A stretch of DNA of 33,476 nucleotides, taken from contig NZ_CALXRN010000101.1 in NCBI RefSeq assembly GCF_944390595.1, positions 1-33,476 on the forward strand, in the 5' to 3' direction. Below are positions 31,072 to 33,476 of this stretch, one piece after another. Position 1 is the first letter of the stretch; each line of letters opens with the position of its first letter. A program made the position numbers and the translations under genes. Origin of the DNA: an uncultured Brachyspira sp. (GTDB taxonomy: Bacteria > Spirochaetota > Brachyspiria > Brachyspirales > Brachyspiraceae). Below the pieces are notes generated by a model. It was given only the letters and a program-made list of their open reading frames with translations. It had not been told where the DNA came from and ran no database searches.

Positions 31072-31099
31072 TTGACAAATTCAAAAAGTAATGTATATT
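31072..31099 (+). promoter_or_regulatory. Consensus promoter of the repeat-led glycan locus
   Basis: A perfect TTGACA at 31072-31077, a 16-bp spacer and TATATT at 31094-31099. The start near 31106 leads a short leader with AGGA at 31120-31123 and ATG at 31131. It is the only strong promoter before the repeat array. Confidence 0.75.
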
Positions 31100-31130
31100 A
31101 TTTTTAACTTTTAATAGTTAGGATTATATA

Positions 31131-31429
31131 ATGTTTAATCGCATCGCATCGCATCGCATCGCATCGCATCGCATCGCATCGCATCGCATCGCATCGCATC
31201 GCATCGCATCGCATCGCATCCTAATAAATTAATTTTTATATTATTAATTATTATATTTTCCCTATTTTTTATTATAAAATATTTTCTTAAGTTAGAAATA
31301 TATATAATATATTTTATTTGTCTAATTTTTCTTTTAAAAAATATTAACTGTATACTTAAAATAATACTAAATAAAACTCAATTATATATTTCATTATTTA
31401 TATATGGAGTAAATAATGCCTATATTTAA
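31131..31429 (+). CDS. Phase-variable two-helix membrane protein, OFF in this sequence
   Basis: ATG 31131 (AGGA, 7-bp spacer) is followed by TTT AAT and sixteen GCATC units. In the present frame it encodes MFN-(RIASH)x5-RI-LIN and stops at TAA 31230-31232. A different frame beginning at 31223 is open for 68 codons to TAA 31427-31429: NKLIFILLIIIFSLFFIIKY is helix one and EIYIIYFICLIFLLK helix two, followed by a basic/polar tail. Loss of one unit (15) or gain of two (18) puts this in frame with the ATG, giving a 97-residue protein MFN-(RIASH)n-P-NKLIF. With seventeen units the frame stops at once. The other two frames close just after the array. The stop overlaps the GT61 start by 14 bp. Function unknown; two membrane helices beside a glycosyltransferase suggest a glycan-assembly or surface role. 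A true gene is inferred from frame, promoter and array, not from homology. Confidence 0.65.
31141..31220 (+). repeat. (GCATC)16 pentanucleotide microsatellite
   Basis: Sixteen perfect tandem copies of GCATC (80 bp, 60% GC) follow TTTAATC directly after the ATG at 31131 and precede CTAATAAATT. Unit length five is not a multiple of three, so each gain or loss changes the downstream frame. The array itself contains no stop codon in any forward frame. Its composition stands out in surroundings of more than 75% A+T. Sequence purity implies recent or ongoing slippage. Confidence 0.97.
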
Positions 31430-32498
31430 TAAGCTGCTCCATTCCAGTATAAGAAATAAATTATCAAAATATATATATGATGATTTAAAAAATAGAGAAA
31501 TTGAAGCTAAAGATTCAGAGTATACAAATTATATACCTATAAAGTATCCATCATCTGAAAAAATTGATTATATATGTTCTATAAAGAATGCTGTGGTTTA
31601 TTCAGATTGGGGATTTATATTTAGCAAAGATGGTAAGATTATAAAAGATAATTTGCCTAATAATATATTTGAACCTAATGCAGAATTATCAGGCAGATTT
31701 TTATTTTATAAATTTAGAAGAAATGTAAAAATTAGAGGAAATGTTTTTTTATTGAAATCTCAATGGCAGAATTATTACGGGCATTGGATTCATGATATAT
31801 TGTCAAGATTATTTATATTGAAGGATTCAGGATTGTTCGATGAAATAGATACTTTTATCATAAGTGAAGGATGTAAATCTAAATTTTATAGAGAAAGTCT
31901 TGAATTATTTGGTGTAAAAAATGTTATAAATGTGCCAGATGATAAAAAGATAGAATGTGAGCATTTATTTTTTAGTTCTTTTCCATGTTTAGAGGTTTCA
32001 AAGCCTTTTAAATGGGAATGTGATAAATTTTTGGAATTAACAAAGCAATTGCTTCCAAAATGTAATATTGGTTTCTACGATAAAATATATATAAGCCGTA
32101 AAAAAGTAAAGACTAGAAATATAATTAATGAAAAAGAATTGATTAATATACTTATTCCTTTAGGATATAAAGTTATTTATCCTGAAGATTATTCTATATC
32201 AGAACAATTTTGTATATTTAATAAAGCTAAAAAAATAATATCTACTTTAGGAAGCGGTTTAACTAATATTGTATGCTGTGAAGCAACAACTTCTATTTTA
32301 GGAATAGTTGCTAGTGTTCGTTATGAGGATCATCATAAGCATATATGTAGTACAATAGGTATGAAATATTTTGAATATATAGAAGATAATCCTAAAAATA
32401 TTCATTATTTTTATAATATTAAAGATAGAGATAGATATAATTTTACTATAGATTTGTCTAAATTTAGAAAAGTTCTTGAAGATTTTGAGAAATGTTGA
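31416..32498 (+). CDS. Glycosyltransferase family 61 (DUF563) protein
   Basis: A 360-residue cytoplasmic enzyme with the family pattern: QWQNYYGHWIHDILSRLFIL (about residues 109-128), DKIYISRKKVKTRNIINEKELINIL, then GYKVIYPEDYSISEQFCIFNKAKKIISTLGSGLTNIVCC. GT61 members transfer sugars such as xylose or N-acetylglucosamine, and bacterial members lie in capsule and lipopolysaccharide loci. GGAG at 31406-31409 serves ATG 31416, inside the 3' end of the phase-variable frame. When that frame is on, ribosomes would terminate 14 bp past this ATG, favouring reinitiation; when off they stop about 180 bp earlier. The switch could therefore change expression of this enzyme too. Confidence 0.88.
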   Translation: MPIFNKLLHSSIRNKLSKYIYDDLKNREIEAKDSEYTNYIPIKYPSSEKIDYICSIKNAVVYSDWGFIFSKDGKIIKDNLPNNIFEPNAELSGRFLFYKFRRNVKIRGNVFLLKSQWQNYYGHWIHDILSRLFILKDSGLFDEIDTFIISEGCKSKFYRESLELFGVKNVINVPDDKKIECEHLFFSSFPCLEVSKPFKWECDKFLELTKQLLPKCNIGFYDKIYISRKKVKTRNIINEKELINILIPLGYKVIYPEDYSISEQFCIFNKAKKIISTLGSGLTNIVCCEATTSILGIVASVRYEDHHKHICSTIGMKYFEYIEDNPKNIHYFYNIKDRDRYNFTIDLSKFRKVLEDFEKC

Positions 32499-32605: not shown

Positions 32606-32673
32606 AAATTTAGTATTATATGAATTTGTATGTTATTAAATATAATGAAAATTTATTTGTATTTATTGTAGTA

Positions 32674-32702
32674 TTGACAAATAAAATATGTAAGTTTATA
32701 CT
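32674..32702 (+). promoter_or_regulatory. Consensus promoter of the GT11 gene
   Basis: A perfect TTGACA at 32674-32679, a 17-bp spacer and TATACT at 32697-32702. The start near 32709 gives a leader of about 100 nt. Together with the upstream promoter it shows that the two glycosyltransferase genes are transcribed separately. Confidence 0.75.
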
Positions 32703-32807
32703 ATTATGAATAGTTATTTAAGATTTTGTATAATTGTTAATTCTGTTTTTATATTAATGATTATATTCAAAAATTAAATATTCTTTATGGAGAAAATCAA
32801 TTAATTT

Positions 32808-33476
32808 ATGATTTATAAATATTATAATAAATTAATAAATAAAATAGCATGGTTCATTCCTATTAAGAAACATAGAGATACATTTAGAGAAATATTACTA
32901 GATATTGTGCATACTATGTATAAAATAGATAATATTAATAAGATGAGTAACAGAGTAAATTCATCAATATGTAATGATGATTTTGTTGTAATAAATTGTA
33001 ATAGCGGTTTATCCGACCAATTGTATCATTATTTTCTTGGAGAATATATAACTAATAATATAATAGAAAAGTAAAATATGATATAAGTTGGTTTAAATAT
33101 AATGGTAAGGATGATAACAAAAACGACAGCAGAAATTTTTGTTTGCTAGATATGCTTCCTGATGCTAACTTTGAGGTATTGAATGAAGATGAAGCAAATT
33201 ATTATAAAATTTGTTTTTCTAAATCTTTTTCTACAGATTATAATATAGCTATAAATGATCTAGATTTTTATTTGAAGAATTATAAAAAAATTTATATAGA
33301 TTTTTTTCAAAAATTGTACGGTAATATAGTGCTTGACATAATAAAAGATATTGATTTAGATAAATATATACTGCCTAAACTTAATTCTAAAAATTTATAT
33401 TTACATGATGAAATAGTTAAACATGATGTTTCAGTAGCAGTTCATGTTAGACTTGGAGATGTAAATGTTATGAAAA
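32808..33476 (+). pseudogene. Glycosyltransferase family 11-like (fucosyltransferase-type), frameshifted, runs off window
   Basis: The first frame (to 33074) has FVVINCNSGLSDQLYHYFLGEYI, matching the GGLGNQLFQYALGRAL start of family 11. The next frame, VKYDISWFKYNGKDD onward, reaches VSVAVHVRLGDV (about 33430-33465), matching the family VHIRRGDY nucleotide-sugar site. One base is missing near the A4 run at 33067-33070, since GAA-AAN-GTA-AAA would join the two parts. Family 11 includes alpha-1,2-fucosyltransferases; the acceptor is unknown. ATG 32808 has no close ribosome site. The 3' end lies beyond the window. Confidence 0.75.

Follow-up and report, generated by a model that had tools for sequence, protein, structure and literature searches.

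What does a perfect array of pentanucleotides switch when it stands at the beginning of a short open reading frame: the peptide of that frame, or the gene behind it? This question is raised by a locus in contig NZ_CALXRN010000101.1 (assembly GCF_944390595.1) of an uncultured Brachyspira sp., a member of a genus of gut spirochaetes of animals and humans. The whole stretch analysed, 33,476 nucleotides, is called the window here. An earlier note on this DNA had proposed a phase-variable gene for a small membrane protein, built like the contingency loci of Neisseria.

Tandem Repeats Finder reported an array of period 5 with 16.6 copies and 100% matches at 31138-31220, and the perfect run of sixteen GCATC units described in the earlier note lies within it. 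The promoter, ribosome site and ATG that the note had placed ahead of the array were likewise found. The features of the locus are listed below.

31072-31099, plus strand: sigma-70-like promoter, TTGACA (-35, 31072-31077), 16-nt spacer and TATATT (-10, 31094-31099), 11/12 matches
31120-31133, plus strand: Shine-Dalgarno-like AGGA (31120-31123) and leader start codon ATG (31131-31133), read from the sequence
31141-31220, plus strand: exact (GCATC)16 array, stop codon absent in all three frames
31221-31232, plus strand: early stops of the two closed exit frames
31223-31429, plus strand: open exit frame of the leader, 68 codons (31223-31426) and stop codon (31427-31429); the peptide itself is not conserved
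31226-31397, plus strand: leader RNA rich in T and with C above G (C 7.0%, G 2.3%), where Rho is proposed to load
31406-31409, plus strand: GGAG, ribosome-binding site of the GT61 gene
31416-32498, plus strand: GT61 glycosyltransferase gene, 360 aa, ATG at 31416 (Pfam PF04577 Glyco_transf_61, E 7.3e-26), proposed switched gene

The promoter site alone is weak evidence, because 11 promoter-like sites were counted in the 560-nt region, compared with 6.8 in shuffled sequence. The array is beyond chance, since the reversed pattern gave 0 matches in the source genome and such arrays recur across the genus. An intrinsic terminator was looked for near the array and none was found.

Because the GCATC unit is free of stops in any frame, the array stays open in each of the three phases and selects the frame that follows. 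The three exit frames end at +4, +12 and +209 after the array. Only one is open, as had been claimed, and its stop lies 14 nt inside the GT61 gene, so that it overlaps the GT61 start. Frame arithmetic also upheld the reading that sixteen units mean off and fifteen or eighteen mean on, because sixteen units lead into the frame closing at +12.

In the sequence 3' of the GT61 gene (32640-33476), an ORF at 32808-33074 without a Pfam match is followed by similar-looking sequence in another frame. By eye, this gene is like the array-led GT11-type gene of another locus (L027). Ahead of it stand a promoter-like site and a short ORF that lacks an array, and the frame of the gene itself seems interrupted or misassembled.

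Arrays and open frames across the genus

Pentamer arrays of GCATC, GCACC or GCAAC were present in 22 of the 26 Brachyspira genomes, a union that includes one genome (G023) with four units at a contig edge. By unit, GCATC arrays of at least 5 units were found in 17/26 genomes, GCACC arrays of at least 4 units in 13/26 and GCAAC arrays of at least 4 units in 2/26; the source genome carries seven arrays. Six-unit GCAHC arrays occurred in 21/26 Brachyspira genomes and in 2/366 other genomes drawn from the phylum. These two (G099 and G293), both of one other genus in the phylum, had 1 and 6 forward matches.

From the survey 57 arrays were retrieved, 38 in a first set and 19 in a second, and the next gene was definable for 49, with its start picked by hand from the candidate starts. 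Excluded were L030, which probably duplicates L031 at overlapping contig ends, five arrays whose next gene lies off the contig (L010, L096, L097, L099 and the second array of L098), and two arrays inside a long ORF (L084 and L087). In the latter two, GCACC arrays stand at the very start of ORFs that are open to +1590 and +1068 past the array, and by their sequence these are in-gene contingency loci alongside the leader type.

The 49 arrays have 4 to 34 units (median 12). The earlier note had called for unit counts in other genomes, and the numbers do differ between near-identical flanks: 10 and 22 units in L011/L021 with 2 differences in 110 flanking nt, 13 and 15 in L010/L049 with 1/110, and 9 and 10 in L028/L033 with 5 flank differences. 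A counter-case is L009/L022, with 13 units in both and 4 flank differences. When two edge loci were skipped, a TTGAC/TANNNT site was found within 120 nt upstream of 42/47 arrays, compared with 0/47 reverse-complement controls, and an in-frame ATG within 45 nt upstream of 46/47. By eye, the leader ATG of L010, L034, L046, L049 and L092 stands only a few bases after the -10 box, which suggests leaderless translation of these leaders, located before TM2/zinc-ribbon-type genes.

An exit frame came to within 35 nt of the next gene's start, or passed it, at 46 of the 49 arrays, while about 13 are given by a random model. In the first set, such a gene-reaching frame was found in 34/36 loci, with exactly one frame in 32, against a Markov null of 1000 rounds with a mean of 7.2 and a maximum of 14. 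A control on real sequence, using matched positions upstream of 78 other genes, reached the gene in 444 of 2110 cases. The second set (n = 13; 12 GCACC arrays and one GCATC array) was retrieved after the rule was framed, and it gave 12/13, eight by exactly one frame and four by two, where the null had a mean of 6.2 and a maximum of 10. The misses were L032, L042 and L091, with gaps of 141, 76 and 38 nt, and two frames reach the gene in L018 and L019 of the first set and L083, L088, L095 and L098 of the second. In L026, L039 and L049, the open exit frame runs on in frame into the gene. With one locus per leader family, the gene-reaching frame was retained in 18/20.

The closed frames ended sooner than chance in the first 36 loci, and both were closed within 25 nt at 30/36 (null mean 16.4, maximum 25; 500 rounds). 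With the start codon picked mechanically, the leader was closed in 37/51 arrays (31/38 in the first set, 6/13 in the second); this tally is rough, with 7 open among 38 when L010 and L030 are included, and 7/13 open in the second set. Gene callers would easily miss these leaders, because so many are closed as assembled.

The genes behind the leaders are of many kinds. A Pfam run on 20 next genes returned MBOAT O-acyltransferase, glycosyltransferase 11, outer-membrane beta-barrel, BspA-type leucine-rich repeats and methyl-accepting chemotaxis protein, and further TM2, short-chain dehydrogenase, creatininase, DUF1232 and a glycine reductase component. Matches below the curated cut-off only were obtained for L009 (sugar-binding glycosyltransferase region) and L047 (Rv1893-like), and 8/20 had no Pfam family at E 0.01. 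The targets thus extend beyond surface proteins; of the genes without a family, several appear, when read by eye, to begin like lipoproteins. A 470-aa MBOAT gene lies behind a GCATC array in G004 (L025, the only such locus in the Pfam run), and genes with the same start lie behind GCACC arrays at nine loci in nine genomes (L083, L085, L088, L089, L090, L094, L095, L098 and L100), which indicates that the layout can persist through a change of unit. One leader family (L028, L033, L038, L044 and L048) was observed before unrelated genes, namely a DUF1232 protein, a short unknown ORF and lipoprotein-like genes, and this leader looks as if it had been shuffled as a module. The viral matches were four contigs of 54-62% G+C, unrelated to these loci. 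A plasmid search found no Brachyspira record.

Leader RNA and the proposed attenuator

The leaders are distinguished by their base composition. In 36 leaders, C was 10.9% and G 5.8%, with C above G in 36/36, compared with C 6.2% and G 7.2% and C above G in 20/64 in control upstream regions (Fisher 5e-13). C exceeded G in 12/13 leaders of the second set, L085 being a tie, and in 20/20 with one locus per leader family. The skew is strongest in the first half of the leader (C 11.3%, G 3.4%, 33/36), where YC occurs 6.9 times per 100 nt as against 2.1 in controls, and is weaker in the second half (C 10.4%, G 8.2%, 22/36). It stops at the gene (C 13.2, G 17.9, 8/36) and is missing ahead of the array (C 5.2, G 9.9, 1/34). 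Two array-less GT61 relatives do not have it in the 112 nt upstream (L013, C 4 and G 6; L017, C 6 and G 8). The skew extends to each of the three codon positions. When open frames were drawn at random with the composition of the controls, only 44% had C above G. Avoidance of start codons was rejected as the cause of the G depletion: ATG was depleted (30 versus 45.9, sd 6.6), GTG and TTG were not, and C was also raised.

In B. subtilis, Rho targets are marked by stretches of C above G together with T richness, and many Rho-terminated fragments have such stretches over 150 nt, according to the available part of one report (PMC13323073). Rho is encoded in the source genome (PF07497, E 1.6e-31), and we assume, by analogy, that the Brachyspira protein has the same preference. 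The MBOAT leaders are short (35-77 nt scored) and, for this reason, would leave little room for Rho.

By thermodynamic prediction on 130-nt stretches, the median unpaired probability of the gene start region was 0.442, and 0.432 in 64 controls (p 0.71). Accessibility of the gene's ribosome site is thus predicted to match that in controls, which argues against plain masking, and sequestration of this site by leader structure was rejected. In twelve loci (L028, L033, L038, L044, L048, L036, L050, L029, L040, L041, L043 and L051), a hairpin-like stretch followed by ATTGCA was observed 3' of the array, for example AATGCC...GGCATTGCAA; the stem of L050 is AATACC...GGTATT, in another frame. It is possibly a conserved RNA element. 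As a common mechanism, a hairpin with ATTGCAA was discarded, because most leaders lack it, including those of the GCATC-type GT61 loci.

From these features, we lean towards reading the window locus as a phase-variable attenuator. The array would slip in replication, so that the repeat number differs between cells. With 15 or 18 units, the leader would be translated to the GT61 start, its RNA would be shielded, and RNA polymerase would get to the gene (ON). With 16 or 17 units, ribosomes would drop off past the array, the naked leader would recruit Rho, and transcription would end ahead of GT61 (OFF), which would be the state of the assembled 16 units. Hand-over of ribosomes at the gene start by re-initiation may add to the Rho effect. 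The architecture of the switch is well supported by the sequence comparisons, and the involvement of Rho is inferred from leader composition. The phenotype would likely be an on/off change of a surface glycan.

Translational coupling gives the same frames another role, and we consider it the less probable account, though a possible one. A leader in the right frame would bring terminating ribosomes to the gene start for re-initiation, and out-of-frame ribosomes would end too far upstream; slippage still sets the phase and Rho is not needed. The positions of the stops fit this reading, since the nearest open-frame stop falls between 20 nt inside the gene and 35 nt before its ATG at 38/49 loci; the window stop is inside the gene, and leader stop and gene start form an ATGA overlap in L009. 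Such proximity alone is weak support, because a reading frame that runs into a gene in another phase will by chance soon meet a stop. Coupling does not predict leaders with C above G in every one of the 36, and with gene starts predicted to be as accessible as those of controls and the downstream ribosome-binding site not sequestered, it leaves silence in its absence unexplained. Coupling alone is possible above all for the short MBOAT leaders.

The same stop positions bear on occlusion, a reading of the opposite sign, in which translation through the gene's ribosome-binding site represses and the open frame means OFF. It is improbable: a nearest open-frame stop 23-71 nt inside the gene, as it would have it, was found at 5/49 loci, with the frame running on at 3 more, whereas 38/49 have the stop at most 20 nt inside or at most 35 nt before the start, and the C-over-G leader is not explained.

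The leader peptide

The earlier note had made the 68-codon frame the phase-variable product and a new membrane-protein family, with a (RIASH)n tail. A hydrophobic frame is indeed open after an in-frame ATG and the array. The search that the note had suggested for this frame as a protein returned no homologue of the window's 70-residue frame, in a search that needs shared exact words, and none was found for the leader of L009.

Five GT61 loci carry an array, the window, L031 and L035 with GCATC and L020 and L024 with GCAAC, and their divergence was compared by codon position. The open frame past the array is 68, 48, 52, 35 and 38 codons long in the five, so that orthologous frames are unequal in length, and in all five it stops 14-17 nt inside the GT61 gene. 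The codon-position comparison that had been set for a leader protein came out even: differences at first, second and third positions were 6, 7, 5 between the leaders of L031 and L035 and 7, 6, 7 between those of L020 and L024, whereas the GT61 genes of the same pairs differed mostly at third positions (19, 10, 50 and 11, 4, 45; Fisher p 0.008 and 0.002 for leader against gene). Pairs with the window leader were also flat (12, 10, 14 with L031; 11, 13, 10 with L035). By the terms that the earlier note had set for a refutation, this outcome counts against the protein.

Over 35 leaders, G occupies 6.5% of first codon positions, against 25.7% in the next genes. L051 and L029 share the same codon phase at only 42% of aligned bases, and both frames are open. 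On divergence, composition and the empty homologue searches, a leader that is a protein gene was rejected, and a small membrane protein as the product of this locus deserves very little credence. In the family of L028, L033, L038, L044 and L048, the peptide may matter, because a mild third-position bias was seen in several pairs (e.g., 3, 5, 11).

The 68-codon frame probably does not represent a protein family. Judged from these comparisons, conservation concerns the openness of the frame and its end at the GT61 start, not the peptide, and the gene switched is most likely GT61. The earlier note's design of a contingency locus driven by slippage is retained, and its placement of the repeat inside the switched gene, as in Neisseria opa, is given up with the peptide.

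A neutral microsatellite of no regulatory role is barely credible: arrays are absent from many GT61 homologues (the retrieved DNA of 14 such loci was checked and had none) and 4/26 genus genomes lack arrays of these units, but gene-reaching open frames (46/49) and promoter-like sites (42/47) speak against it, as do cases in which one gene is preceded, at an unchanged position, by one unit or another (GCATC or GCAAC for GT61, GCATC or GCACC for MBOAT-type genes).

Related systems and meaning for Brachyspira

The CTCTT pentamers of Neisseria opa and the tetramers of Haemophilus lic/mod are simple-sequence contingency loci. The Brachyspira loci resemble them in having a perfect non-triplet repeat near the start codon, in which slippage changes the frame, and in targets that include surface glycan enzymes and surface proteins. 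They differ in that the repeat of opa and lic/mod lies in the switched gene, while in Brachyspira it lies in a separate leader ORF and the next gene is proposed to be switched. The exceptions closer to the opa type are L084 and L087, with the array at the start of a long ORF, and L026, L039 and L049, with the open frame in frame.

In work attributed to Lavitola (1999), phase variation of siaD in Neisseria meningitidis by a poly-C tract reportedly involves intracistronic transcription termination. There a slippage frameshift exposes untranslated RNA to Rho, as is proposed for Brachyspira, but termination is inside the shifted gene, and the Brachyspira loci would use a dedicated leader of Rho-like composition. 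Regulatory upstream ORFs linked to Rho include tnaC and mgtL.

A further one is toiL-topAI (PMC12121999). In such systems the translation state of a short upstream ORF is tied to downstream Rho termination, as is proposed for the Brachyspira leaders; the input of the known ones is a ligand or ribosome stalling, whereas the Brachyspira input would be repeat number, a heritable random variable. In the flagellar switch of Clostridioides difficile, Rho preferentially terminates the OFF mRNA in the 5' leader, according to the abstract (PMC7446863). Phase variation is there also decided after transcription initiation, but by DNA inversion through RecV and not by repeat slippage, and the abstract does not mention a reading frame in the leader.

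In the literature searched, no description of these Brachyspira repeats stood among the matches listed (titles and abstract starts). A 2025 review on phase variation (PMC11868660), searched by term, does not contain the words Rho, leader, translational coupling, spirochaete, pentanucleotide or upstream open. In the parts available of two other papers, phase variation is mentioned once, for Vsp proteins in general (PMC5415613), and Brachyspira is not named in a survey of frame transitions (PMC3711429). The parts of the mechanism are known separately; no account that combines them in a dedicated leader was found in the literature searched.

The recurrent layout suggests that across Brachyspira surface genes are switched on and off by repeat count. 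We put at about an even chance a genus-wide class of phase-variable Rho attenuators, short sacrificial leader ORFs that each have their own promoter, a GCANC array, wrong frames that close early, one that stays open and a C-over-G leader before unrelated genes, forming a random valve independent of the downstream protein, as if it were a portable module. If this is true, phase variation in Brachyspira would be a modular device in which the random switch is set apart from the switched protein and repeat slippage is tied to transcription attenuation, and it could be tested whether naked leader RNA of a given composition suffices to silence a gene. The loci would then amount to a catalogue of genes that are likely phase-variable, with many surface genes among them, which would bear on serotyping and antigen variation in these spirochaetes.
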